DNA from: Sphingomicrobium marinum | GTDB taxonomy: Bacteria > Pseudomonadota > Alphaproteobacteria > Sphingomonadales > Sphingomonadaceae | Assembly (NCBI RefSeq): GCF_026157105.1 | Contig: NZ_JANPVQ010000001.1 | Location: forward strand, 241,501 to 305,500 | Direction: 5' to 3' | Length of the DNA: 64,000 bases | Notes under the pieces: generated by a model | What the model saw: the letters and a program-made list of their open reading frames with translations, nothing else | What the model was told of the DNA's origin: nothing | Database searches by the model: none | Translations under genes and position numbers: made by a program | In this document: in pieces, positions 18,286 through 31,132 of the stretch | How positions within the stretch are numbered: the stretch's first letter is position 1 | How the letters are laid out: every line of letters begins with the position of its first letter

Positions 18286-18886
18286 TTGCGGGTTCCTTGG
18301 CTAGATGGATTTGGGCCCAATCGGCCAGCGCAGCGGCAAGCCGGTGGCCCAGCGGGGTCAAAATGGATTCGGGGTGGAATTGGAGGCCGAGCTGCATCGC
18401 GGCCTCGTCGCGGATTGCCATTGCCATGCCCTTGATCTGGGCATCGACGGTGAAGTTGCCGGGAAGCTCGGCGACTGGCGTGCACAGCGAATGATAGCGC
18501 CCGATGGTGAGCGGATCGGGCAGGCCCGAAAAAGGGCCGCGCCCGCCATGCACCAGCGCGCTCGTCTTGCCATGAACCGCCTGCGGCGCGCGTGAGACGA
18601 CACCGCCCGCCTGCTGCACGATCGCCTGATGGCCAAGGCAGATCCCGATTAGCGGTATCTTGGCTTTTGCCAGCCCGATCAACTCGAGGCAGCATCCTGC
18701 CTCGTCGGGGGTGCCGGGGCCGGGCGACAACATGATCGCCCCGCCGTCGGCCATTGCCAGCGCGTCTCGAGCCGCGATGCTGTTGCGCACCACGCGCACC
18801 ACGCGCACCTGCGCGCCTCCTGCGCGCATCGCGTCGACCAGGTTGAAGGTAAAGCTGTCGCGATTGTCGATAAGCAGGATCTTCAT
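18278..18886 (-). CDS. trpG: anthranilate synthase component II (glutamine amidotransferase)
   Basis: This 202-residue class I amidotransferase delivers ammonia from glutamine to TrpE. The nucleophile is Cys83 in IGICLGHQ, the oxyanion loop is LSPGPGTPDEAG, and the catalytic HPES triad part is present near residue 170. Its ATG overlaps the trpE stop by four bases. In many bacteria this subunit is shared with p-aminobenzoate synthesis; with trpE adjacent, the tryptophan role is the primary one. Confidence 0.96.
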   Translation of the reverse strand: MKILLIDNRDSFTFNLVDAMRAGGAQVRVVRVVRNSIAARDALAMADGGAIMLSPGPGTPDEAGCCLELIGLAKAKIPLIGICLGHQAIVQQAGGVVSRAPQAVHGKTSALVHGGRGPFSGLPDPLTIGRYHSLCTPVAELPGNFTVDAQIKGMAMAIRDEAAMQLGLQFHPESILTPLGHRLAAALADWAQIHLAKEPANA

Positions 18887-20382
18887 GCCGCGGCTCCCAG
18901 CGCGCTCAGCACCGCGCTTGCCTTGGCGCGCGTTTCAGCGGCTTCGGCGGTGGGATCGCTGTCAGCCACCACGCCCGCGCCGGCGCGCACTTCAGCCACG
19001 CCATCGCGCACCAGTGCCGAGCGGATAATCACCGCGCTGTCGAAACCGCCCGCACCCGTCAGCACGCCGATCGCGCCGCCATAGGGCCCGCGCGCGCTCG
19101 TTTCGACCGAACGGATGAGTTCGATCGCCTTGAGTTTGGGCGCGCCCGAAAGCGTACCGACATTCAGGCAGGCGCGGATCGCATCAATGGCGTCGCGACC
19201 CTCGTCGAGCTCGCCCTGCACCGTCGAAACAAGGTGCATGACCTTCGCGAACCGCTCGACCCGCAGCAGGCTGGTTACCCGCCGCGTGCCAGGCTTGGCG
19301 ACGCGCGCGATATCGTTGCGACCAAGATCGACGAGCATCAGGTGCTCGGACACTTCCTTCTGGTCGAGCCGCAGGTCGGCCTCCTGCCGGTCATCGGCGT
19401 CGTTCGTATCCCCGCGCGGACGCGTTCCCGCAATCGGGCTGACGGATACGATACGCCCGCGCACCTCGACACCGTTTTCGGGCGAGGCGCCGAACAGGGT
19501 GCCGTAGGGCGTGTCGGCATAGAAATTGTAAGCGCTGGGATCGGCCTTCACGAGCCGGCGGAAAGCCTGGATCGGCTCCGTGCACGGGGCTTCGAACGTA
19601 CGGCTCGGTACCGCCTGGAAGATGTCGCCTGCGAGGACATGACCTTTCAGCTTCTCGACCGTCGCTTCGAATTGCGCATCGTCGATATCGGGACTGGCGA
19701 CGATGTCCGGCGCGTCTTGGAGAGCGGGAACCGGCGCTTGCTCGATCCGCGCTACCGTGCGCGACAGTCGCTCGACGCCAAGCGATTGCAGCCGATGCGC
19801 TGTCGCCTGGTCGTCATGTCCCGCCACCAGCGCCAGCACGCGGGCCCCGCCACCCGGCTCGACGACCACCAGCGTCTCGGCCAGTCGGAAATAGAGATCG
19901 GGAAAATCGCCGTCGGGCCGGGGCGGCAATGTCTCGACCATGTCGACATGGTCGAAGCCGATCATGCCCAACGCGGCGAGCGCATAAGGCTCGTCCTTGT
20001 CGTGGAAGCGGATCGCGGAGGTCAAGGCGCGCAGTGTATCTAGCGCGCATGGCGCTGCGGCGCGCACTGCTTCGTCGGGATCGTCCGATCGTTCGAAGCG
20101 CAGGCGCAGCCTGTCGCCGTCGACCTTTGCGCCCAGCCTTTCGGCGATGGGCCCGAGCAGCGCGGTGCCATTCTCGCTTACCGCATGGATCGCTGCGTCG
20201 CCGCCCGTCGCCTCGAGCTCGATCGCATGGTCGACGAGGATCAACGCGGTTCCGCCGGTGCGGCGAAAGAACAGGCGGGCGCGACCTTCGGCATGCAATG
20301 CCGCGAACAGGCTGACCGGATCGACGGCCCCGGAGAGCCGCCGCGACAATATGGTCGCTTCGCCTCTCCGGATCTGTCTCAC
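18883..20382 (-). CDS. trpE: anthranilate synthase component I
   Basis: This 499-residue chorismate-binding enzyme makes anthranilate from chorismate and ammonia. The C-terminal domain shows FQAVPSRTFEAP, SPIAGTRPRG, HLMLVDLGRNDIARV and the GTLSGAPKLKA motif. The LSRRL segment at residues 12-16 resembles the LLES-type tryptophan feedback element of TrpE, though it is diverged. It lies between aroG and trpG with 4-base overlaps on both sides. Confidence 0.95.
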   Translation of the reverse strand: MRQIRRGEATILSRRLSGAVDPVSLFAALHAEGRARLFFRRTGGTALILVDHAIELEATGGDAAIHAVSENGTALLGPIAERLGAKVDGDRLRLRFERSDDPDEAVRAAAPCALDTLRALTSAIRFHDKDEPYALAALGMIGFDHVDMVETLPPRPDGDFPDLYFRLAETLVVVEPGGGARVLALVAGHDDQATAHRLQSLGVERLSRTVARIEQAPVPALQDAPDIVASPDIDDAQFEATVEKLKGHVLAGDIFQAVPSRTFEAPCTEPIQAFRRLVKADPSAYNFYADTPYGTLFGASPENGVEVRGRIVSVSPIAGTRPRGDTNDADDRQEADLRLDQKEVSEHLMLVDLGRNDIARVAKPGTRRVTSLLRVERFAKVMHLVSTVQGELDEGRDAIDAIRACLNVGTLSGAPKLKAIELIRSVETSARGPYGGAIGVLTGAGGFDSAVIIRSALVRDGVAEVRAGAGVVADSDPTAEAAETRAKASAVLSALGAAA

Positions 20383-21392
20383 AGTTCGCGGCCCAATGCG
20401 CTCAGCATCGCCGACAGCTGGCCGCCCAGCGCTTCCATCTGGTCAGGGTAGAGCGATTGCGGGCCGTCGCTGAGCGCGCTGGGCGGATCGTAGTGAACCT
20501 CGACCATCACGCCGTCGGCGCCCGCCGCGGCTGCCGCCAGCGCCATCGGCGCAACCAGTTCGCGCTTGCCCGTACCGTGGCTGGGATCGACGATCACCGG
20601 CAGGTGCGACTTCTGCTTGAGCAGCGGAACGGCGGCGAGATCGAGCGTATTGCGCGTTGCCGTTTCAAAGGTGCGGATGCCCCGTTCGCACAGGATCACG
20701 TCATCGTTGCCGCTGGCCATGATATATTCGGCCGCCATCAGCAGGTCGTCGATCTTGGCGGCCATGCCGCGCTTGAGCATGACCGGCTTGCCCGCACCGC
20801 CGACCGCCTTGAGCAATTCGAAATTCTGCATGTTGCGCGTGCCGATCTGGATCGCGTCGGCCTTCTCGGCGAGCAGATCGAGATCGCGCGTGTCAACGAG
20901 TTCGGTGATGATCGGAAGGCCGACCTTGTCGCCCGCCTCGCGCAGCAGATCGAGCCCTTCGGGCCCATGTCCCTGGAAGCTGTAGGGCGAGGTGCGCGGC
21001 TTGTAGGCGCCGCCGCGCAGCACGCGTGCGCCAGCCTTCTTGGCTGCTTCGGCGCTGGCCTGCACCTGCTCGGCATTTTCGACGGCGCACGGACCCGCGA
21101 TCAGCGCGAACTTGCCCCCGCCGATCACCGCGTCGCCGATCGCGATGCGGCTGTCATGCGGGTGCAACTCGCGGCTCACGAGCTTGTAAGGCGACAGGAT
21201 CGGTTTCACGCTTTCAACCGACGGTTCGGCGTCGAAACCGAGCTCGGCCAGCACGCGCTCGTCGCCCAGCGCGCCCAGCACGACGCGTTCGGCGCCGGGC
21301 ATGTGCAGCGGTTTCAGTCCCTTGGCCTTGATCTTGTCGAGCAGGCGATCGACCGTCTCCTCGGTCGCTTCGGGTTTCATCACGATAATCAT
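20379..21392 (-). CDS. aroG: 3-deoxy-7-phosphoheptulonate synthase, type I-beta with N-terminal regulatory domain
   Basis: This 337-residue DAHP synthase commits phosphoenolpyruvate and erythrose 4-phosphate to the shikimate pathway. Residues 1-70 form a ferredoxin-like regulatory domain, as in Thermotoga-type enzymes. The barrel follows, with FALIAGPCAVEN, RGGAYKPRTSPYSFQG, IGTRNMQN, KRGM and IVDPSHGTGKRE. It is the first structural gene behind a Trp-codon leader and terminator, so entry into aromatic synthesis should be attenuated by charged tRNA-Trp together with the trp genes. GGAG lies upstream of the ATG. The symbol is by function; aroF would be equally valid. Confidence 0.93.
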   Translation of the reverse strand: MIIVMKPEATEETVDRLLDKIKAKGLKPLHMPGAERVVLGALGDERVLAELGFDAEPSVESVKPILSPYKLVSRELHPHDSRIAIGDAVIGGGKFALIAGPCAVENAEQVQASAEAAKKAGARVLRGGAYKPRTSPYSFQGHGPEGLDLLREAGDKVGLPIITELVDTRDLDLLAEKADAIQIGTRNMQNFELLKAVGGAGKPVMLKRGMAAKIDDLLMAAEYIMASGNDDVILCERGIRTFETATRNTLDLAAVPLLKQKSHLPVIVDPSHGTGKRELVAPMALAAAAAGADGVMVEVHYDPPSALSDGPQSLYPDQMEALGGQLSAMLSALGREL

Positions 21393-21429
21393 GTCAACTT
21401 ACTCCATTGGGGGCGTGGAGAGCGGACAT

Positions 21430-21454
21430 GAAAAAGCCCGCTCGCGGCGGGCTT
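21430..21454 (-). terminator. attenuator (Rho-independent hairpin) of the aroG-trp operon
   Basis: On the minus strand an 8-bp perfect stem, AAGCCCGC with GCGGGCTT around a 5-base loop, runs straight into TTTTTC. It lies 26 bases after the stop of the Trp-rich leader peptide and 37 bases before aroG. A strong terminator at this place, between a Trp-codon leader and the first gene, is the defining layout of a trp attenuator. The competing antiterminator pairing was not worked out. Confidence 0.88.
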
Positions 21455-21479
21455 CGATAAGTCTGCGTGTCAGGCAGGG

Positions 21480-21569
21480 TCAGTCGGTCGCGCGCCAGGA
21501 TATGGACGAGCGCCACCACCAGCCGGCGAACGCGGCTGCCGAATCGGTGATGGGTGCGAACTTCATCAT
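21480..21569 (-). CDS. trpL: trp operon leader peptide
   Basis: This is a 29-codon open frame beginning ATG ATG AAG at 21569 and ending TGA at 21480. Codons 17, 18 and 19 are three consecutive TGG (21521-21513) and codon 25 is a fourth, so 4 of 29 residues are Trp, far above chance. Ribosome stalling here when tRNA-Trp is uncharged should prevent the terminator at 21430-21454 from forming. A weak purine-rich GGAAG lies about 14 bases upstream. TTGACA further upstream is a possible -35 box, but no good -10 is evident. Confidence 0.88.
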   Translation of the reverse strand: MMKFAPITDSAAAFAGWWWRSSISWRATD

Positions 21570-21664
21570 TGCCCGCGTAACTTCCGTCTCTTCTCCAACA
21601 TGTCAACCCGTTCGTTGCGCAGAACAAAAGGGTTGCAATCGGCCTGATCGATCCCTAGCAGCTC

Positions 21665-21690
21665 GTTCCACTGTTTTAACACGATGGAAC
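21665..21690. promoter_or_regulatory. inverted repeat at the yerC start, possible operator
   Basis: GTTCCA and TGGAAC are separated by 14 bases, and the right arm overlaps the ribosome-binding region four bases before the yerC ATG. It lies in the shared control region of the divergent trp and his operons. A dyad here could be the site of the TrpR-like YerC protein or simply chance. Confidence 0.35.
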
Positions 21691-21693
21691 AAG

Positions 21694-21984
21694 ATGACCG
21701 ATTCGCCCCTTAAGGATCTGGCTGTTGCGATGGCCGGACTGGAAAGTCCCGAAGAAGCCGAAGCTTTTCTCAAGGACCTGTGCACGCCCACCGAACTGCG
21801 CGCCATTTCGGAGCGCTGGCATGTCGCGCGCCTGCTGGCACGCGGGGACAAGACCTACCGGCAGATTCACGACGAAACCGGTGTGTCGACGACGACCATC
21901 ACGCGGGTCGCGCGCTTCCTCAACGCAGAAGAAAATTGCGGCTACCGCGCGATGATCGACCGGCTGGAAGGAAAAGAGGGATGA
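21694..21984 (+). CDS. yerC: YerC/YecD-family TrpR-related DNA-binding protein
   Basis: This is a 96-residue all-helical protein of the TrpR fold. The TPTELRAISERWHVARLL stretch and the helix-turn-helix KTYRQIHDETGVSTTTITRVARFL are typical of the YerC/YecD group. The function is not well established, and the ligand of true TrpR cannot be assumed. It stands first in the his operon, with its stop overlapping the hisG start (ATGA), and is divergent from the aroG-trp operon. I infer control of one or both. The ATG at 21694 starts the conserved domain; the frame further upstream covers the trp leader and is not used. Confidence 0.88.
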   Translation: MTDSPLKDLAVAMAGLESPEEAEAFLKDLCTPTELRAISERWHVARLLARGDKTYRQIHDETGVSTTTITRVARFLNAEENCGYRAMIDRLEGKEG

Positions 21985-22856
21985 GCCGCCTCCACCTTGC
22001 CATCCAGAAGAAAGGCCGCCTTGCCGACCAGAGCCGCGACCTGCTCAAGCAGGCGGGGATCAAGGTGCAGGATACCAAGACGGGCCTGACTGCGCGCGCT
22101 ACCAATTTCCCGCTCGACCTCATGCTGGTGCGCGATGACGACATCCCCACCTTTGTCGGCGACGGCGTGTGCGAGCTCGGCATCGTGGGCCTCAACGTGC
22201 TCGAGGAATATCGGCTCGGCCAGGACGAGGACGACGTCGAGATCATCGCGCGTCTGGGCTTCGGCAGATGCAAGCTGATGATCGCCTGCCCCGAAAGCGA
22301 GGCGTTCGACATGTCCGCGCTCGAGGGCAAGCGCATCGCGACCTCTTACCCGCGCATGACCAGGCGTTTTCTTGCCGAGAGCGGCATCAGTGCGGAGACC
22401 GTTACGATGCAGGGCGCGGTCGAACTCGCGCCGCGGCTGGGCATTGCCGATTATGTCTGCGACCTGGTGTCGTCGGGACAGACGCTCGAGGCCAACGGTC
22501 TCAAACCGGTAGAAACGGTGCTCGAAAGCGAGTCGGTGCTGGTGCGGACCCTCAAACCGATCGACGGGGCGATGGCCGAACTTGTCGACGCGCTCAAGGC
22601 GCGCACCGATGGCGTCATCGCCACCAGCGAAAGCAAATATATCGTCCTCAATGCGCCCGAAAATGCGCTCGAAGACATCACCCGCATCCTGCCCGGCGCC
22701 GAAGCACCGACCGTCATGCCGCTGCTGGGTCGGCAGGGTCAGGTCGCGGTGCAGGCGGTGTGTCAGGAATCGGTGTTCTGGGAAACGCTCGAGCAGCTCA
22801 AGGGCGCGGGCGCGCGCGACATCCTCGTCATGCCGATCGAAAAGATGATGCTCTGA
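21981..22856 (+). CDS. hisG: ATP phosphoribosyltransferase, long form
   Basis: This 291-residue enzyme joins ATP and PRPP in the first histidine step. It is the long, self-regulated form: after the catalytic part, ending in the DLVSSGQTLEANGL PRPP-binding region, there is a C-terminal ACT-like domain closing with WETLEQLKGAGARDILVMPIEKM. Many alphaproteobacteria instead use a short HisG with a separate HisZ. The ATG at 21981 overlaps yerC by four bases, and its TGA shares one base with hisD. Confidence 0.96.
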   Translation: MSRLHLAIQKKGRLADQSRDLLKQAGIKVQDTKTGLTARATNFPLDLMLVRDDDIPTFVGDGVCELGIVGLNVLEEYRLGQDEDDVEIIARLGFGRCKLMIACPESEAFDMSALEGKRIATSYPRMTRRFLAESGISAETVTMQGAVELAPRLGIADYVCDLVSSGQTLEANGLKPVETVLESESVLVRTLKPIDGAMAELVDALKARTDGVIATSESKYIVLNAPENALEDITRILPGAEAPTVMPLLGRQGQVAVQAVCQESVFWETLEQLKGAGARDILVMPIEKMML

Positions 22857-24136
22857 TGACAATGGTAGACTGGAACAGTGCCGATGACTCCCAGCGCCGC
22901 GCCGCGCTGGCCCGGCCCGATATGCGCGGTGCCCCCGAACTGCGCGCCCGTGTCGCAGCGATCGTCGAGCAGGTAAAGGACGAGGGCTGGCCCGCGCTCG
23001 AGCGGTTGGCGAGGAACATCGACGGCGCGCCGCCCGTAAAGGTCGCGGTGGGCCCCCATGCTGACAAAGCGCGCGAAATGTTGGGACACGAAGCGATCGA
23101 TGCCATCGAGATGGCGTGCGCCAATATCGCCCGCTTCCATCGCGAGACCCTGCCGCGCGATACCGAAGTGGAGACCATGCCGGGACTGCGCGTTGCAAAG
23201 CGCTGGGTACCACTGTCGTCAGCGGGGCTCTACGTGCCGGGCGGCAAGGCGCCGCTATTCTCGACCTTGCTGATGCTCGCCGTTCCAGCATTGGTGGCCG
23301 GTGTCCAGCGGCTCGAAGTCGTTACCCCGCCGCGACCGGATGGCGGGCTCGATCCTGCCGTGGCTTACGCCGCGCAGCTATGCGGCATCGAATCGATCTG
23401 GACCGTGGGCGGTGCGCAGGCCATCGCCGCGCTTGCTTTCGGGGCTGGCGAGATACGTCCCGTCGATCGCATCTGCGGACCCGGCAATGCCTGGGTCGCG
23501 GCGGCAAAGAGCATCGTATCGTCGATGCCCGGCGGCCCCGGTATCGACCTGCCCGCAGGACCCTCCGAACTGATGGTGATTGCCGATGCGAGCGCCGATC
23601 CGTCGGTCGTTGCCGCCGATCTGCTCAGCCAGGCCGAACATGGCCCTGACGCCCAGTCGATTATCGTCAGCACCGACACGTTCGTCATCGACCGCGTCCT
23701 CGCCGAAGCGGGGGCGATGATCGCCGACATGGGAGGGGCGTTTGCGCCGCTCAGGGCGATCAAGTGCGACACGCTCGACACGGCTTGCCAGATCGCCAAC
23801 GCCTACGCGCCTGAACATCTGAGCCTCGCGACGCAAGACGCCGAACGACTGGTCAACCGGATCGTCAATGCGGGCGCGATTTTCGTTGGCGGCGGCGCGG
23901 CCGAAACGCTCGGCGATTATCTCGCCGGGTCCAGCCACGTCCTGCCGACCGACGGTGCGGCGCGCTTTACCGGAGGCGTCACGTCGCTTTCCTTCATGAA
24001 AGCGATCAGCATCCAGCGTGTCACCGATGAAGCGGCGCGCTGTCTCGCCGCGCCGGCGGCCGTGCTGGCCCGTCTCGAAGGCCTCGAAGCGCACGCGCGC
24101 GCCGCCGAAATCCGTGTCCGGAAGGTGGACGCATGA
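22856..24136 (+). CDS. hisD: histidinol dehydrogenase
   Basis: This 426-residue zinc enzyme oxidises histidinol to histidine in two NAD-dependent steps. Family segments are intact: LYVPGGKAPLFSTLLM, GAQAIAALAFG, DRICGPGNAWVAAAK, IDLPAGPSELMVIAD, SQAEHGPDAQ, NAYAPEHL and the C-terminal SSHVLPTDGAARF. The ATG at 22856 shares its first base with the hisG stop. The last codons overlap hisCB by four bases. Confidence 0.97.
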   Translation: MTMVDWNSADDSQRRAALARPDMRGAPELRARVAAIVEQVKDEGWPALERLARNIDGAPPVKVAVGPHADKAREMLGHEAIDAIEMACANIARFHRETLPRDTEVETMPGLRVAKRWVPLSSAGLYVPGGKAPLFSTLLMLAVPALVAGVQRLEVVTPPRPDGGLDPAVAYAAQLCGIESIWTVGGAQAIAALAFGAGEIRPVDRICGPGNAWVAAAKSIVSSMPGGPGIDLPAGPSELMVIADASADPSVVAADLLSQAEHGPDAQSIIVSTDTFVIDRVLAEAGAMIADMGGAFAPLRAIKCDTLDTACQIANAYAPEHLSLATQDAERLVNRIVNAGAIFVGGGAAETLGDYLAGSSHVLPTDGAARFTGGVTSLSFMKAISIQRVTDEAARCLAAPAAVLARLEGLEAHARAAEIRVRKVDA

Positions 24137-25764
24137 GCCTCGCCGACCGCCTCGTGCGTCCCGACCTCAAGGACCTGCCCCCCGTAGATCTCGCCGGGGC
24201 GCCAATCCCGGGGACGATCCGTCTCGACGCCAACGAGAATCCGTACGAACCGCTTGCCGGCGGCCCGACGATCAATCGTTATCCCGACCCGCAGCCTGCG
24301 CCGCTTCGCGCCCGGATGGCCGATCTCTACGGCTGCCAGCCCGACCAATTGTGGGTCACGCGCGGCAGCGACGATGCCATCGACCTGCTCTGCCGCGCTT
24401 TCCTGCGTCCGGGTGAAGATCGCATCGTCGTCGTCGAGCCGACTTTTTCCGCTTACGCCCAGTTCGCCCGCATCCAGGGCGCCAAGGTCGATGCGGCGCG
24501 CCTCACCGATGATTATGTCTTCGACGAGCAAGCGGTGCTCGATGTATGCAAGCAGGGCATTGCGCCGAAGCTGCTGTTCCTGTGCACACCCAATAATCCA
24601 ACCGCTACGCCGATCGATCCGGACGCCGTGCGCCGTATCGCCGCGGCGTTGCCCGACACGCTTGTGATCGCCGACGAGGCCTATGGCGAGTTTGCCGACA
24701 CAACGAGCCTTGCTCTTGAAGTCGGCGGCAACATGGTTGTCTTGCGTACGCTGTCCAAAGCCTACGGCTTGGCGGGCGCGCGCATCGGCTGCGCCATCGC
24801 CGATCCCGAGATCATCGATTGGCTCGCGCGCGTCTCGCCGCCTTATCCGCTGCCCACGCCATCGATCGACGCCGCGATGAAAGCACTCGCGCCCGAACGG
24901 ATGCCGGTACACCAGGCGCGGATCGAAAAGCTGCTTGCCGACCGAACAGGCCTTGCGCAGCAGCTACGCGGTGTCGATGAAGTGCGAGCGCTTTACGAGG
25001 GCGGCAGTTACCTTTTCCTCATCGTCGCCGATCCCCAGGATCTTGCGCGGCGCCTTGCTGCTGCCGGGGTCAAGGTCCGCTTCCGGCCCAACGCGGCGCC
25101 GGGCGGCGTGCGGGTCAGTATCGGTACCGACGCCGAGAACCGCGCCCTCCTCGCTGTCTTCGGTATCAGCGCTGAACGCCCGCAGGGCCGCCGCGCCGCG
25201 ATCACGCGCGACACGGGTGAAACCGCCATCGTTGTCGAGGTCGATCTGGATGCTGATGACCCCAAGCGTCGCATCGATACGGGCATCGGCTTTTACGATC
25301 ACATGCTCGACCAGATCGCGGGCCACGGGGGCTTCGGGCTTACCCTCGCCTGCACGGGCGACACGCACATCGACGGCCACCACAGCATTGAAGACGTCGC
25401 GCTCGCGCTCGGCGAAGCGCTCGACGCGGCCGTCGGCGACCGTAAGGGTATTGGCCGTTTCGGCTTCGCGCTGCCGATGGACGAGACGTCTGCCGAAGTG
25501 CTGATCGACCTGTCGGGTCGCCCTTTCGCCAAGTTCGACGGCGACTTCAGCGACGAAAAAGTGGGCGATTTCCCGACCCAAATGACGCCGCACGTCTTCC
25601 GCAGCCTTGCCGACAGCATGCGCGCCGCGATCCACGTGAGGGTCAAAGGCGACAACGACCACCACAAGGTCGAAGCCTGTTTCAAGGCGTTCGGCCGCGC
25701 GCTGCGGCAGGGCCTCGCCACGGCGGGCGGCGGGGGTGTGCCCTCGACCAAGGGGGTATTGTGA
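24133..25764 (+). CDS. hisCB: fused histidinol-phosphate aminotransferase / imidazoleglycerol-phosphate dehydratase (HisC-HisB)
   Basis: A single uninterrupted 543-codon frame encodes two enzymes. Residues 1 to about 350 are a class I/II aminotransferase (HisC) with the LDANENPYEP start, CTPNNPT, ADEAYGEF and the PLP lysine Lys209 in TLSKAYGLAGARIG. Residues about 353-543 are a complete IGP dehydratase (HisB), with GFYDHMLDQIAGHGGF, HIDGHHSIEDVALALGEAL, the second metal site DHHKVEACFKAFGRAL and the terminal PSTKGVL. The linker is only about ten residues. The known HisB fusion is with an N-terminal phosphatase; an aminotransferase fusion is not one I recognise. The dehydratase acts just before the aminotransferase, so channelling is possible. 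Confidence 0.95.
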   Translation: MSLADRLVRPDLKDLPPVDLAGAPIPGTIRLDANENPYEPLAGGPTINRYPDPQPAPLRARMADLYGCQPDQLWVTRGSDDAIDLLCRAFLRPGEDRIVVVEPTFSAYAQFARIQGAKVDAARLTDDYVFDEQAVLDVCKQGIAPKLLFLCTPNNPTATPIDPDAVRRIAAALPDTLVIADEAYGEFADTTSLALEVGGNMVVLRTLSKAYGLAGARIGCAIADPEIIDWLARVSPPYPLPTPSIDAAMKALAPERMPVHQARIEKLLADRTGLAQQLRGVDEVRALYEGGSYLFLIVADPQDLARRLAAAGVKVRFRPNAAPGGVRVSIGTDAENRALLAVFGISAERPQGRRAAITRDTGETAIVVEVDLDADDPKRRIDTGIGFYDHMLDQIAGHGGFGLTLACTGDTHIDGHHSIEDVALALGEALDAAVGDRKGIGRFGFALPMDETSAEVLIDLSGRPFAKFDGDFSDEKVGDFPTQMTPHVFRSLADSMRAAIHVRVKGDNDHHKVEACFKAFGRALRQGLATAGGGGVPSTKGVL

Positions 25765-26342
25765 GCCTCGCTATACTCGACCTTGGCTACGGTAACACCG
25801 AATCGATCCGCCTCGCCTTCCAGCGACTCGGCGCGGACCCGATCCTCGTGTCCGATCCCGCGAGCGTTCAGGCTGCGTCGAAAATCGTGCTGCCCGGCGT
25901 CGGCAACGCTGGATATGGCATGCAGCGGCTCGAAGAAGCCGGCCTCATCGCTACGCTCAAACTGCGCAACAAGCCTGCGCTCGGCATCTGCCTTGGCATG
26001 CAGATGCTTTTCGAAGCATCGGAAGAAACCGATCGCCCTTTGCTCGGCATCCTGAAGGGCAAGGTGAGAGCGCTCAAGCCCGCCAAGGGCCGGCCTGTCC
26101 CGCACATGGGTTGGACAAAGGTCAGTAACGTTGCGCCCGGCATCGGGCTGTCTGAAGGCGACCACCTCTATTTCGCGCATAGTTTCGCTTGCCCCAAAGG
26201 CCCGACCATGGCCGCGCGCGTCGACTATGGCGGGCCGATCCCGGCCGCGCTGCGCCACAAGAACTGGTGGGCTGCACAGTTTCACCCCGAACGGTCCTCC
26301 GGCCCCGGTGCCAACTTCCTGAAGGCCTTCCTCGCCGCATGA
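25761..26342 (+). CDS. hisH: imidazole glycerol phosphate synthase, glutaminase subunit
   Basis: This 193-residue class I amidotransferase supplies ammonia to HisF. The nucleophile is Cys77 in LGICLGMQMLF and the catalytic His-Glu pair is in FHPERSSG near the C-terminus; the LPGVGNAGYGM oxyanion region is present. The start (GTG at 25761) overlaps the hisCB stop, and the stop overlaps hisA by four bases. HisH and HisF work as a heterodimer. Confidence 0.97.
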   Translation: MSLAILDLGYGNTESIRLAFQRLGADPILVSDPASVQAASKIVLPGVGNAGYGMQRLEEAGLIATLKLRNKPALGICLGMQMLFEASEETDRPLLGILKGKVRALKPAKGRPVPHMGWTKVSNVAPGIGLSEGDHLYFAHSFACPKGPTMAARVDYGGPIPAALRHKNWWAAQFHPERSSGPGANFLKAFLAA

Positions 26343-27061
26343 AGCTGATCCCCGCCATCGACCTCATGGACGGCAAGCCCGTCCGCCTTGCCCAGGGCGA
26401 TTTCGATCGCCGGACCGACTATGGTGAGAGCGCTGCGGATGCGCTTGCCATGTTCCTGATCCAGGGTGCCGAGTTGACGCACATCGTCGATCTCGACGGC
26501 GCCAGGGCAGGCGAGCCGAAGCAGCACAACCTCATTGCTGCGTTGGCACCCATCATGCCGGTGCAGGTTGCCGGCGGTTTCCGCTCGCGTGAGCAGGTCG
26601 GGGACATGTTCGAAGCCGGCGCCGCGCGCGTCGTCATCGGCAGCCTCGCCTTGTCGCGTCCGCAAATTTTCATCGAGATGCTCAACTGCTACGGCGCCGA
26701 ACGCATGGTGCTCGCGCTTGACGTGCGTCTCGAAGACGGTGTGCCCTATGTCGCGCGCCACGGCTGGCAGGAGACCTCGACCAGCACGCTCGACGAGGTG
26801 CTCGCCGACTTTCCTCGCGTGCGGAATATTCTCGTCACCGATATCGGGCGCGACGGCATGATGACCGGGCCCAACGTCGCGCTCTATCGAGCGTTGAAAG
26901 AAAATTATCCCGAACTGCAGGTGCAAGCCTCGGGCGGCGTGGCCAGCCTCGGCGATCTCGACGAGTTGCGCGAAGCAGGCGCCGATGCGGCGATCACCGG
27001 CAAGGCCATCTGGGGCAAGACATTCTCGGTTGCCGAAGGGGTGCAGCGTGCCCGTGGCTAG
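26339..27061 (+). CDS. hisA: phosphoribosylformimino-5-aminoimidazole carboxamide ribotide isomerase
   Basis: This 240-residue beta-alpha barrel carries out the Amadori rearrangement of ProFAR. The N-terminal [20 protein letters not shown] holds the catalytic Asp, and the second-half [14 protein letters not shown] strand holds the other. The phosphate-binding [13 protein letters not shown] and ITGKAIW loops are present. The ATG at 26339 overlaps hisH by four bases. The hisF start lies inside its last codons. Confidence 0.97.
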
Positions 27062-27815
27062 GATCATCCCCTGTCTTGATGTCGCCGACGGCAAGGTCGT
27101 CAAAGGCGTACGGTTCAAGGATCACCGCGTCATTGGCGAGGTCGTCGACCACGCGCTGCGCTACCGCGACGAGGGCGCCGACGAGCTCGTCTTCTACGAC
27201 ATCACCGCGAGTGCCGATAAGCGGACGATCGACCCGAAATGGATCCACGATGTCGCTGCGGTCATCGACATTCCCTTCGCGGTCGCCGGCGGCATCGACA
27301 GCGTCGAGACGGCCGAAGCCTGCCTTTCGACGGGCGCCGACAAGGTGTCGGTCAATTCCCCCGCGCTAACCCGGCCCGATCTCGTCGCCGAGCTCGCCGA
27401 TGCGTTCGGCAGGCAATGCGTCGTGCTCGGCATCGACAGCTATGAGGATGAGGGCGGCACCTACCGCGTCAAGCAATTCACCGGTCGCCCCGAATCAACC
27501 GTCGATACCGGGCGCACGATGCTTGATTGGGCGGGCGAGGGTGCGGCGCTCGGGGCGGGCGAGATCGTGCTCAATTGCATGAACCGCGACGGCGTGCGCC
27601 AGGGCTATGACCTCGCGCAGCTTCGCGCGCTCACCGACGCCGTTGACGTGCCCGTCATTGCCTCGGGCGGTGCCGGCAAGGCCGAACATTTTGCCGAAGC
27701 GTTCGACGCCGGATGTTCGGGCGCGCTGGCGGCCAGCGTCTTTCACGACCGACGCATCGCCATCGCGGACCTCAAGGACTATCTGGATGCCCAAGGTTGG
27801 GAGGTGCGCCGATGA
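27048..27815 (+). CDS. hisF: imidazole glycerol phosphate synthase, cyclase subunit
   Basis: This 255-residue barrel uses ammonia from HisH to make imidazole glycerol phosphate and AICAR. Catalytic aspartates are in [18 protein letters not shown] and in the [14 protein letters not shown] segment, and the phosphate loops IPFAVAGGI and VIASGGAGK are intact. GTG codons at 27048 and 27054 can both start it; the first is used because family members have a few residues before the first strand. It overlaps hisA by 14 bases and hisIE by four. Confidence 0.96.
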
Positions 27816-28411
27816 AGCTCGACTGGGACAAGATGGACGGAATGATCCCCGCCATCGTCCAGCAGGCCGACACCGGTGAGGTGCGGATGCTGGGCTATAT
27901 GAACCGCGAAGCACTAGACGCCACGCAGGCCAGCGGAAAGGTCACCTTCTGGTCCCGTTCGCGCGGCGAACTCTGGGAGAAGGGTGCGATTAGTGGCGAC
28001 ACGCTCGATCTGGTCGATATGCGCACCGATTGCGACGGCGATGCGCTGCTGGTGCTGGCGCGGCCCGCCGGCCCCACCTGTCACCTCGGCACGACAAGCT
28101 GTTTTGGCGATGAGGGTGCGCCCGGCGTCGGTTTTCTGGGTGAATTGGCCACGGTCATATCGGCCCGCGCTGCGGGCGCCGATGCACAAGCCAGCTACAC
28201 GGCGCGCCTGCTCGCCAAGGGGGTCAAGCGATGCGCGCAGAAGGTTGGCGAGGAAGGCGTTGAAACAGCGCTTGCCGCCACTGCGGGCGACAAGCGCGAA
28301 ACAGCCAGCGAGGCCGCGGACCTCCTCTACCACCTGCTCGTCCTGCTCGAGGCTACTGACGTGCCGCTCGACGATGTGCTCGCGGTGCTCAAGGATCGCC
28401 ATAAAGCTTGA
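27812..28411 (+). CDS. hisIE: bifunctional phosphoribosyl-AMP cyclohydrolase / phosphoribosyl-ATP pyrophosphatase
   Basis: This 199-residue fusion performs steps two and three of histidine synthesis. Residues about 1-105 are the zinc-dependent cyclohydrolase (HisI), with [39 protein letters not shown] and the Cys of HLGTTSCF. Residues about 110-199 are the pyrophosphatase (HisE), with [22 protein letters not shown] and the acidic [13 protein letters not shown] helix. This enteric-type fusion is unusual in alphaproteobacteria, where the two are generally separate genes. It ends the his operon. Confidence 0.95.
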
Positions 28412-28443
28412 CCGCCAAGGCCCCAGCGCCTTTGGCAGCCGCC

Positions 28444-29616
28444 ATGCAATACGATGTGATCGTTCTTGGCGCCGGCGCCGCCGGCATGATGGCCGCCTTT
28501 ACAGCAGGTCGTCGCGGGCGGCGCGTGCTGCTCGTCGATCATAATGATGCGCCCGGAAAGAAGATTTTGATCTCGGGCGGTGGGCGCTGCAATTTCACCA
28601 ACATTCATGCGGTGCCCGAACGCTATCTCTCGACCAACCCGCACTTCGCCAAGTCCGCCATAGCGCGCTACACCCCGGCCGATTTCATCGCGCTCGTCGA
28701 TAGCTACGGCATCGCGTGGCACGAAAAGACGCTCGGCCAGCTTTTCTGCGACGGCTCGGCCAAACAGATCGTGGCCATGCTGATGCAGGAATGCAGTGAA
28801 GCGGGTGTCGTCACGCGCTTTGGCGATAGTCCTGAAGTTGCGCGCGATGGCGATCAATTCGTGGTCACGCTCGGCGCCGACACAATGCGAAGTGATGCGC
28901 TCATGCTTGCTACCGGCGGTCCCTCGATCCCCAAACTAGGCGCCACAAGTTTCGCCTACGATTTGGCACGCGGCTGGGGTCTCAAGATCATCGAGCCGCG
29001 TCCCGCGCTCGTGCCGCTTAAACTGCCGGCGGACGAAGCGCTTTTCCGCGAACTCTCGGGCGTCGCCACCGGCGTTACCGCTCGCGCCGAACGCGGACCT
29101 GCCTTTCGCGAAGCGGCCTTGTTCACGCATCGCGGTCTGTCGGGCCCTGCCATCCTGCAGGTCTCCAGCTATTGGCGCGGCAATGGCGAGCAGGTCAGCA
29201 TCGACTTCCTGCCCGGGAGGCAGGCGGGTTGGCTGCGCGAAGTTAAGCGCAGCGCGCCGCAACGCACGCTCGGACGTGTGCTGGCCGAAGCCCTGCCCGA
29301 TCGTTTGGCAAGCGCCCTTGTTGATCGACTGTCGATCGACGGCCCGCTGCAAATGCACGGCGACAAGGCGCTCGAGGAAGCCGAAAGCAGGCTAGCCGAC
29401 TGGCGCTTCACCCCCAACGGATCGGAAGGGTTTGCCAAGGCCGAGGTCACTGTCGGAGGCATCTCCACTGATGACTTGTCATCGCGGACAATGGAAGCCA
29501 AGCGCGTGCCCGGCCTCTACTGCATCGGAGAAGCGGTCGACGTAACTGGCTGGCTCGGTGGCTACAATTTCCAGTGGGCGTGGGCGAGCGGTGTCGCCGC
29601 GGGCGAGGCGGCCTAG
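28444..29616 (+). CDS. HI0933/BaiN-family NAD(P)/FAD-dependent oxidoreductase
   Basis: This 390-residue flavoprotein has the N-terminal dinucleotide motif VIVLGAGAAGMMAA, then DAPGKKILISGGGRCNFTN and the C-terminal GLYCIGEAVDVTGWLGGYNFQWAWASG typical of the HI0933-like family. The physiological substrate of most members is unknown. I use the ATG at 28444 because the Rossmann strand starts right after it. A TTG at 28408 overlapping the hisIE stop (TTGA) would add 12 residues and couple it to the his operon. It meets hisN tail to tail. Confidence 0.9.
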   Translation: MQYDVIVLGAGAAGMMAAFTAGRRGRRVLLVDHNDAPGKKILISGGGRCNFTNIHAVPERYLSTNPHFAKSAIARYTPADFIALVDSYGIAWHEKTLGQLFCDGSAKQIVAMLMQECSEAGVVTRFGDSPEVARDGDQFVVTLGADTMRSDALMLATGGPSIPKLGATSFAYDLARGWGLKIIEPRPALVPLKLPADEALFRELSGVATGVTARAERGPAFREAALFTHRGLSGPAILQVSSYWRGNGEQVSIDFLPGRQAGWLREVKRSAPQRTLGRVLAEALPDRLASALVDRLSIDGPLQMHGDKALEEAESRLADWRFTPNGSEGFAKAEVTVGGISTDDLSSRTMEAKRVPGLYCIGEAVDVTGWLGGYNFQWAWASGVAAGEAA

Positions 29617-30365
29617 CCGTTAAGCGCGTCGACGGCCTGGCGGTAAAGCGATTCGCTCGCCGCCGCGATCACGTCGCCGCCTGACAAATCGTCGCCGCCG
29701 CTCCAGTTGCCGATATATCCGCCGGCAAAGCGGACGCAGGCGACCAGCGCATCATAATCGTGCGGCTTCAACCCAACATCGGTGGCAAGGTCGATATCGC
29801 CCGTCGCAACGCGCGCAAACGCCATCGCGTCGAGCCCGTAGCGCACTAACGGCACTTGCGCGCGCAGTCGATCGAACGCGTCGAGATGCGCGCCTTCGAA
29901 CAGATGCGGGTCGGTTGTCGACACGCGCGCTTCGGCGAGCGAGCGGCATCCGCTTGTCTCGACAATTGCGCCGTTCAAGGTGGTTTCGCCTTCGAACCCG
30001 ATCAGCCGTTCGTCGAGATCGGGCAGGTCGATCATGCCGCCGACATGATTTCCATCGTCGATCAGGCCCGCAAGCACGGCCCAGCTCGGCAGGCCGCAAA
30101 TGAAGGCGCGCGTGCCGTCGATCGGATCCAGGCTCCAGTAGCGCGCCGCGCCCTCGCGCGTCCAGCCATATTCCTCGCCCCAGATGGCATCTTCCGGATA
30201 GGTCTTTTCAATCAGCGCGCGCATCGCGCGTTCGGCAGCGCGGTCGGCTTCGGTAACGGGATCGAACAGCCCGTCTTCATCCTTGTTGTCGACGCTATCG
30301 GTGTCGGTGAGTTCGATGGCGGCCCGGGCGACATCACCCAGTCGATCGAAAAAGTCGCGGATCAT
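29613..30365 (-). CDS. hisN: histidinol-phosphatase, inositol-monophosphatase family
   Basis: This 250-residue metal-dependent phosphatase has the family's metal site: DPVTEADRAAE (residues 36-46), GEE (63-65), DPIDGTRAF (80-88) and the late HDYDALVACVRFAGG. It would remove phosphate from histidinol phosphate, the one histidine step missing from the fused genes nearby, since HisB here lacks a phosphatase domain. Other IMPase-fold activities cannot be excluded by motif alone. The ATG at 30365 overlaps the TauE gene stop (ATGA), so it looks cotranscribed with the sulfide genes. Confidence 0.87.
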   Translation of the reverse strand: MIRDFFDRLGDVARAAIELTDTDSVDNKDEDGLFDPVTEADRAAERAMRALIEKTYPEDAIWGEEYGWTREGAARYWSLDPIDGTRAFICGLPSWAVLAGLIDDGNHVGGMIDLPDLDERLIGFEGETTLNGAIVETSGCRSLAEARVSTTDPHLFEGAHLDAFDRLRAQVPLVRYGLDAMAFARVATGDIDLATDVGLKPHDYDALVACVRFAGGYIGNWSGGDDLSGGDVIAAASESLYRQAVDALNG

Positions 30366-31132
30366 AATATCTCCAGTGCGAGGCCCCACCGATAGAGCAT
30401 GTAGACTGCAACACTAAAGATAATCCCAACGAAAATGCGGGTGAGCGCGCCTTTCGTCCCTGCCAACTTCTTGGCGGCGCGGCCGCCTGCCCAGCTGCCG
30501 ATGAATCCGCCTCCGATGAACGCTGCGGCGATGGCCCATTCGACATGGCCGGCCAGGCCGTAGCTGGTTGCAGTGGTGGCGCCCAGCGCCGTCACCCCGA
30601 CCAGGCTGGTCGCCATCGCGTTGAAGATCGGCAGGCTCGCTGCCGCCATCAGCCCGGGCACGATAAGGAAACCGCCGCCGATGCCGAAAAAGCCCGCCAT
30701 CACGCCAGTGGCGCCGCCATAGGCCAGCAGCTTCATCATGTTGGGTTTGACGAAGGCGGTGTTCGGACCCTCTTCCTTCTTGCGCAGCATCAGCGCGCCG
30801 ACGAGGATCATGAGAAGCGCGAACAATCCGAGCAGCATGTCGCCATCGGTCGCTTTGCCCATCTCGGCACCACCAACGGCCCCCACGACGCCGGCCAGCG
30901 CAAAAGGAATACCCGCCTGCCAGCTTACCGCGCCGTCGCGTGCCTTTCCGAAGAGACCGATCGCGGCATTGGCGCCGACGCCGACAGCGCTGGTGCCGAT
31001 CGCAGCATGCGGCGGCAGACCGATGACATAGGCGAGGAATGGGGTAGCGAGGATCGAGCCCCCGCCGCCGATCAACGCCAAGCTGAACCCGACCAGGCTG
31101 CCGCCGAGCGCTGCAATCAGCGCATCAAGCAT
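30362..31132 (-). CDS. TauE/SafE (TSUP) family membrane permease
   Basis: This is a 256-residue integral membrane protein with about eight hydrophobic segments in two repeats, each opening with a glycine-rich stretch (LIGGGGSILATPFLAY and GFFGIGGGFLIVPGLM). TSUP permeases move small sulfur compounds or organosulfonates. Its place after a rhodanese and a BigR-type regulator points to sulfite or thiosulfate export after sulfide oxidation; that is inference. The ATG at 31132 overlaps the rhodanese gene by eight bases, and the frame upstream of it is a shadow. Confidence 0.88.
   Translation of the reverse strand: MLDALIAALGGSLVGFSLALIGGGGSILATPFLAYVIGLPPHAAIGTSAVGVGANAAIGLFGKARDGAVSWQAGIPFALAGVVGAVGGAEMGKATDGDMLLGLFALLMILVGALMLRKKEEGPNTAFVKPNMMKLLAYGGATGVMAGFFGIGGGFLIVPGLMAAASLPIFNAMATSLVGVTALGATTATSYGLAGHVEWAIAAAFIGGGFIGSWAGGRAAKKLAGTKGALTRIFVGIIFSVAVYMLYRWGLALEIL

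Follow-up and report, generated by a model that had tools for sequence, protein, structure and literature searches.

Does one open reading frame in the histidine operon of Sphingomicrobium marinum encode two enzymes of the pathway as a single polypeptide, and if so, where did such a gene come from and why is it kept? The question is raised by positions 24133..25764 (forward strand) of a 64,000-nucleotide stretch of that genome (contig NZ_JANPVQ010000001.1, positions 241,501 to 305,500; hereafter the window), where a first-pass annotation, made from the letters alone, had read an aminotransferase, HisC, running into an imidazoleglycerol-phosphate dehydratase (IGPD), the product of hisB. The hisC-hisB fusion is real and the observation is confirmed; what that annotation missed is the complete operon in which the gene lies and its wide occurrence beyond one genome. 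From sequence comparison, the fusion is probably functional, as a conserved, constrained, putative bifunctional enzyme in an acquired operon. We consider it likely, with good though not complete confidence, that it is a working bifunctional enzyme that came from an acquired operon bearing HisNB, via a deletion of ~485 bp, with a separate phosphatase, HisN, taking over step 8 of the pathway.

The fused gene and its domains

The gene runs from ATG to TGA as one open reading frame of 543 codons (543 residues) without an internal stop. The HisC domain (residues 1-343; 24133..25161, forward strand) is delimited by TIGR01141 (26-343) and PF00155 (41-341; 158.4 bits, cut-off 19.7) and carries the pyridoxal phosphate (PLP) lysine, Lys209. 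A linker of about 7 residues, as defined by the ends of the profile matches (residues 344-350; 25162..25182, forward strand), leads into the dehydratase domain (residues 351-543; 25183..25761, forward strand), where PF00475 matches at 383-524 (198.3 bits, cut-off 27) and NF002111 at 353-543 (232.3 bits, just reaching its cut-off of 231). The HisB models of NCBIfam start at about 351-356 and run to 543. The highest scoring of them is that of the bifunctional HisNB, NF003937, which matches from model position 165 on (270.1 bits against a cut-off of 443), and the Pfam scan found no HAD (DDDD) phosphatase domain at the N-terminus of the fusion protein. The first-pass claims of an intact frame, a full aminotransferase with Lys209, a short linker, a full dehydratase with both metal-binding motifs, and two halves that would serve consecutive steps (6 and 7) are supported.

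The active-site residues point the same way. The motif around K209, RTLSKAYGLAG, aligns with RTLSKAF of the solved HisC 7szp, and K209 is identical throughout 23 aligned fusions (alignment A1). Residues N155, D181, Y184, S208, R217, and R327, which we take to be the PLP-site residues beside K209, are unchanged across the same 23 sequences, as are H390, H416, H417, E420, H487, H510, H511, and E514 of the dehydratase and its C-terminal STKG (S538-G541). The dimanganese ligands of IGPD were assigned by motif match to the pattern given in PMC10978614, rather than via alignment to that protein. The closest solved structures are stand-alone HisC (7szp, 1fg3) for residues 7-340 and stand-alone IGPD (6fwh and others) for ~352-543, and none of the 53 matched sequences of solved structures spans both halves. 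Within its own 2.24-Mb genome the fusion is the sole strong HisC match (271 bits, with runners-up at 111 and 103), and no second locus there matches its HisB part. In comparisons with seven relatives (Nei-Gojobori), the ratio of nonsynonymous to synonymous substitution rates (dN/dS) ranges from 0.12 to 0.19 in the HisC half and from 0.04 to 0.23 in the IGPD half, values that are rough because dS is near 1; by this measure both halves are under purifying selection.

Occurrence in the genus, the family, and beyond

An unbroken full-length fusion is present in 41 of the 61 genomes of the genus sample, our own included, the other 40 being 55-85% identical to it. One further genome (G010, 86% complete) has the fusion in pieces, and the remaining 19 have no HisB match, 12 of these being at least 96% complete. 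All 42 congeners having HisB therefore carry the fused form, and separate hisC and hisB genes of the fusion's type were seen in none of the 61. HisD is also absent from all 19 HisB-less congeners and from four family genomes without a HisB match (G204, G183, G188, G245); among 26 genomes tested it was found in three, which are the fusion-bearing controls. Since the HisB-less genomes also lack HisD, the pathway within the genus sample is either present with the fusion or absent. These counts bear on the simplest doubt, that a sequencing or assembly error joined two genes. Such artefacts do exist, as the apparent fusion in L156 (G978, from another class of the phylum) had to be rejected as a frameshift near the end of hisC, because a normal HisC C-terminus and stop are present in another frame. 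The window gene has both domain ends complete and the join is kept across dozens of other assembled genomes; with unbroken fusions in 41 of 61 congeners and 57 of 140 checked loci, we reject an artefact, whose probability we regard as negligible.

Among 199 genomes of the family sample the fusion occurs in six, spread over 4 of 96 genera. Another six gave no hit at E 1e-30: five belong to fusion-bearing genera and the sixth is 70% complete, so that HisB is missing from 5 of the 11 sampled genomes of fusion-bearing genera versus 1 of 188 others (the 70% complete one). The other 187 genomes match weakly (best E about 1e-31 to 1e-54), via the HisB part where listed, and at 24 loci checked among them HisB stands alone. 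In one closely related his-less congener, G019, locus L239 was compared with window 18883-30389: trpE, aroG, the genes from yerC to hisIE, and hisN are absent from it, and the flanking gene order is kept together with a flavoprotein gene described below. The loss of trpE and aroG concerns this locus only, the rest of the G019 genome not having been searched for either.

Beyond the family, the named genome collection holds at least 545 encoded relatives. Of the best 80 loci, which were examined, 23 are single-frame fusions and the remainder separate genes; the 23 comprise 14 sphingomonad-like loci, 8 that are SAR116/Puniceispirillum-like or otherwise unplaced alphaproteobacterial, and one from Candidatus Egerieousia. 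The closest named fusion among the matches listed is that of Sphingomicrobium nitratireducens (L067), 75% over the whole protein. The 57 fused loci among the 140 checked by script include some that share a genome. In the class-level sample (385 genomes) 13 matched at E 1e-66, our own included, the others being eight full-length fusions (all eight loci script-checked), two with a degenerate HisC half (G318, G531), one remnant (G341, locus L172), and one cut by a contig end (G343). In the phylum-level sample (398 genomes) nine matched at E 1e-75, again counting our own; the rest are one fusion (L150), five genomes of a genus that we label g158, an unfused adjacent pair (L155), and the frameshift L156. 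Because the class- and phylum-level samples were thresholded, these counts are lower bounds. Apparent fusions in Kitasatospora/Streptomyces, in Acidimicrobiales (L096), and at L155 were rejected, the genes being merely adjacent. The Egerieousia fusion (L081:215-1903) comes from a Bacteroidales metagenome-assembled genome (MAG), a single one, and has a 60 bp gap between its HisC and IGPD parts, with a linker of ~20 residues. A search of 72,556 plasmid records gave 79 hits at E 1e-30, all of them below 60% identity; the 15 hits listed (Pasteurella, Klebsiella, Salmonella, Proteus, Aeromonas, Escherichia) each match in two pieces over ~2.1-2.2 kb, the pattern of hisC plus hisNB. The taxonomic spread of the two-domain architecture, a point raised in the first-pass annotation, thus extends over sphingomonads, SAR116, other Alphaproteobacteria, and one Bacteroidales MAG.

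Relation to known histidine-enzyme fusions

The statement that no HisC-HisB fusion is well described agrees with the sources available. According to both a 2023 review (PMC10138114) and Fani et al. 2007 (PMC1963479), the his genes with a record of fusion number seven (D, N, B, H, F, I, E); hisC is not one of them, and the word hisC is absent from the main texts of both. The open-licence literature searched, in the portions available, contains no HisC-HisB fusion, and unreported or unindexed entries in databases or subscription journals may well exist. HisIE, HisHF/HIS7, HIS4, and the heptafunctional protein of Acanthamoeba are likewise fusions of histidine enzymes, HisIE occurring also in the present operon, and HisC is involved in none of them according to the accessible parts of PMC1963479, PMC10138114, PMC8305728, and PMC6029752.

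The instructive comparison is with HisNB of the Escherichia coli type, which the first-pass annotation had set up as a contrast. It was right that the partner differs, HisNB carrying at its N-terminus a HAD phosphatase (step 8) where the fusion carries HisC (step 7) and no HAD domain; it missed that the fusion appears to descend from HisNB. The two share the same IGPD lineage in the tree, the same place in the operon, and an arrangement in which another enzyme precedes IGPD, and in fusion genomes step 8 appears to be shifted to a separate HisN. With stand-alone HisC, a fold type I PLP enzyme, the fusion shares the full domain and the K209 motif, its nearest kin being HisC of HisNB-type operons, but unlike stand-alone HisC it has no stop and continues into IGPD after the linker. 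Native alphaproteobacterial HisB and HisC would carry out the same reactions but are encoded by separate genes and fall in other clades of both trees; where listed, native HisB is ~40-50% identical to the HisB part of the fusion.

Origin of the fusion

The careful HisB tree has 77 rows, 11 long or near-identical ones having been dropped from 88 selected; of 73 HisC rows, 3 were left out of the approximately unbiased (AU) test and 4 out of the careful tree, and one locus (L173) was placed by the quick HisB tree alone. A split at 99/97 sets 22 canonical HisB rows apart from the rest of the careful HisB tree. Alphaproteobacterial rows derived from fusions number 37 (the HisC half is full in 33, dead in 3, and a remnant in 1) and form one group, whose sister is HisNB from the gammaproteobacterial MAGs L097 and L121 (93/95). 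In the HisC tree the fused HisC groups with HisC adjoining HisNB (99/95), away from native alphaproteobacterial HisC.

Gene order and spacing are consistent with these placements. The order seen in the window, with yerC first and HisNB in the place of the fusion, is found in operons that are gammaproteobacterial or resemble such operons, those of L097, L120, L121, and L111, the last his gene of L097 and L121 matching hisIE over ~92 residues only and being HisI-like. Between the HisC and IGPD coding regions lie 18-27 bp in each of the 18 alphaproteobacterial fusions measured. The corresponding gap is 506-579 bp in every one of the 10 HisNB neighbours measured, and two Balneolota whose N-terminal part is shorter have 391 and 369 bp. 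In L097 and L121 the hisC and hisNB genes share an ATGA overlap. Given the differences in gap length and the ATGA overlap, a single deletion of ~485 bp would explain the fusion. A gammaproteobacterial-type operon, yerC-hisG-hisD-hisC-hisNB-hisH-hisA-hisF-hisI(E), would have been acquired horizontally, and one internal deletion would then have brought the two frames together by taking out the hisC stop and the HAD phosphatase domain, exchanging a pair of non-consecutive activities (steps 6 and 8) for a consecutive one (steps 6 and 7). Transfer of gammaproteobacterial hisNB, and perhaps of whole operons, to other groups including one alphaproteobacterium had been proposed by Fani et al. 2007 (PMC1963479). 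From these comparisons we infer the deletion as an actual event, and likewise catalysis by the fusion, the activity of HisN, and any benefit of the join.

As a separate observation, HisNB also occurs in the actinobacterial L111 and L117 (Serinicoccus), L111 showing it in a yerC-headed his operon of gammaproteobacterial appearance; this looks like another horizontal transfer.

The phosphatase step

The deletion would have removed histidinol-phosphate phosphatase (step 8), which would pass to an IMP-type HisN, here encoded beside the operon (hisN, 29613..30389, reverse strand, convergent to the operon; top NCBIfam model TIGR02067). The search for HisN covered 16 fusion genomes, a subset of those then known, and 16 of the 23 his-less genomes, with a threshold of 200 bits that is our own choice, the curated cut-off of TIGR02067 being 275.15. 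At that threshold HisN is present in all 16 fusion genomes, in 12 of which it lies no more than ~5 kb from the fusion, and in one of the 16 his-less ones. Most genomes of both kinds also have a second, weaker IMP-family match, scoring about 148-180 bits where listed. The HAD model HisB-N (TIGR01261) is not reached at its cut-off in any of 19 fusion genomes and has no match at all in our own. Judged by profile scores and co-occurrence, hisN probably replaces the lost HAD domain.

Several results weigh against this account in one part or another. The HisC half scores just below the cut-off of its own family model (TIGR01141, 269.3 bits, E 4e-80, against 276.55). For HisN, the TIGR02067 cut-off is reached in none of the 32 genomes, the window hisN scoring 222.3 bits; the his-less G036 retains a strong HisN (228.6 bits); in 4 of 16 fusion genomes (G104, G190, G056, G052) HisN is away from the fusion; and weak HAD matches (52-72 bits against a cut-off of 140) occur in 4 of 19. 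No intermediate of the deletion was found in any alphaproteobacterium. A single alphaproteobacterial origin has moderate support in HisB (84/58, in 81% of bootstrap trees) and was recovered in 6% of bootstrap trees for HisC, so more than one deletion event may have occurred; the AU test on HisC does not reject a single alphaproteobacterial clade (p 0.569). A single origin that includes the Bacteroidales L081 was rejected by the same test (p 0.0039). L081 is a long branch in the HisB trees and its position shifted between the quick and the careful one, so that the case for its independence rests on HisC.

The last of the opposing results is that HisB without a HAD domain, and with a differing N-terminal part, occurs in three Balneolota (L125, L126, L130) within the part of the tree formed by HisNB and the fusions. 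It lends some credit to a different history, in which hisC became fused to an adjacent stand-alone hisB through loss of its stop, without a HisNB ancestor, and stand-alone hisB does adjoin hisC in Actinomycetota (L082 and others). However, the fused IGPD stands beside gammaproteobacterial HisNB and distant from both Actinomycetota and canonical alphaproteobacterial HisB, the yerC-headed order equals that of HisNB operons, and the top-scoring HisB profile is the bifunctional one. We consider simple stop loss unlikely and continue to prefer descent from HisNB by deletion.

Relatives with a dead HisC half

In genus g158 of family f63 (L149, L151, L152, L153, L154) the position of K209 holds leucine in all five genomes fetched. 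Their HisC half is shortened and has lost Y184 and N155, and the frame is intact, with D181 and R217 retained in all five and R327 in four. Ten pairwise comparisons over 259-269 codons give dN/dS of 0.14-0.50 for the HisC half, rough figures as dS reaches 1.5, and the IGPD half gives 0.08-0.16. As far as codons and motifs tell, the g158 HisC half is dead, its PLP lysine lost, yet constrained. Elsewhere in each of the five genomes there is a separate HisC that exceeds the family cut-off; in the three cases placed in the tree it is of the native alphaproteobacterial type. In the HisB tree the g158 IGPD joins that of Peiella sedimenti (95/86), a species listed under Caulobacteraceae, and g158 may accordingly be a genus of that family. 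A further stage may be represented by G341 (L172:304-1980), whose HisB has a long N-terminal stretch in which phmmer detects no HisC, apparently the fusion in more advanced decay; the genome also has a separate HisC (272.1 bits, just below cut-off).

That a dead HisC is kept under constraint argues that a role other than transamination, perhaps packing on the outer IGPD shell, can retain this half. Because these relatives keep a dead fused HisC, channelling cannot be the sole reason for which the join persists.

Possible assembly and benefit of the join

In the intact fusion, the IGPD half would form imidazole-acetol phosphate (step 6), which the HisC half would transaminate to histidinol phosphate (step 7). 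According to PMC10978614, the N-terminal sheet of a plant IGPD faces the outside of a 24-mer. A shell-like particle can be imagined, with a 24-mer IGPD core of 432 symmetry whose outward N-termini bear HisC dimers and hand over imidazole-acetol phosphate, the HisC of g158 then being a structural or regulatory pseudoenzyme of the dehydratase; we offer this as a tentative picture that is more probably wrong than right.

We give an even chance to the view that compaction of the operon produced the join as a neutral side effect, with no channelling and with independent halves on a short tether. This view concerns the benefit of the join and is therefore compatible with an origin by deletion. It is favoured by the linker, which is the least constrained part of the gene (dN/dS 0.29-4.5, from the five of seven comparisons that gave a value over only 8 codons), by g158, where HisB persists beside a dead HisC and tethered transamination is thus dispensable, and by the loss of the whole pathway in 19 of 61 congeners. 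The exclusive use of the fused form by HisB-bearing congeners and the maintenance of a short linker in every alphaproteobacterial fusion measured speak for a benefit, but neutrality would still be compatible with both.

The tether might also be incomplete, if an internal translation start yielded separate HisB as well. An in-frame ATG, GTG, or TTG lies within -12 to +8 codons of the IGPD start in 51 of 65 fused loci, in L145 as an ATG exactly at that start, and a Shine-Dalgarno-like stretch precedes such a codon in 8 of 65. The candidate codons are, however, at scattered positions, 14 of the 65 loci have none, and the window gene itself has no in-frame start codon in that interval, which makes a partial fusion of this kind improbable.

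Operon and neighbouring genes

The fusion sits in an overlapping operon, yerC-hisG-hisD-[hisC-hisB]-hisH-hisA-hisF-hisIE, sharing a few bases with each neighbour, and all of these genes are on the forward strand. The first gene encodes a yerC/HisR-like regulator of the TrpR family (21694..21984; PF01371, TIGR02531), followed by hisG of the long form (21981..22856; PF01634 and PF08029) and hisD (22856..24136; PF00815, 442.6 bits). Downstream are hisH (25761..26342; TIGR01855), hisA (26339..27061; PF00977, with TIGR00007 at 204.7 bits, below its cut-off of 228.95), hisF (27048..27815; TIGR00735, 315.6 bits), for which we chose a GTG start, and hisIE (27812..28411; NF002747, 261.8 bits). With the proteobacterial HisR operator consensus published in PMC9413887, no site with three or fewer mismatches is present in the window.

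An HI0933-family flavoprotein gene (28408..29616, forward strand; PF03486, TIGR00275), not a known his gene, overlaps hisIE. Among the genomes tested it is present in all 5 with the fusion and in 7 of the 9 his-less ones. By co-occurrence and the G019 locus, hisN follows the pathway as one of its genes would, unlike the flavoprotein, which seems to be a passenger. In G024 the flavoprotein gene sits far from the operon.

Significance

With the fusion, histidine biosynthesis, one of the most thoroughly studied pathways, gains a putative bifunctional enzyme for its consecutive steps 6 and 7, and hisC joins the his genes with a record of fusion. The comparisons suggest a simple route from HisNB to HisC-HisB by one deletion, apparently taken at least twice, in Alphaproteobacteria and in the lineage of the Bacteroidales MAG. 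The series of intact, lysine-less, and remnant HisC halves offers a natural system in which to ask what is left for a tethered domain to do when its chemistry has become redundant, and whether channelling was ever the purpose of the join. For Sphingomicrobium and its family, the pattern of presence and absence makes a case for the all-or-none loss of compact operons.

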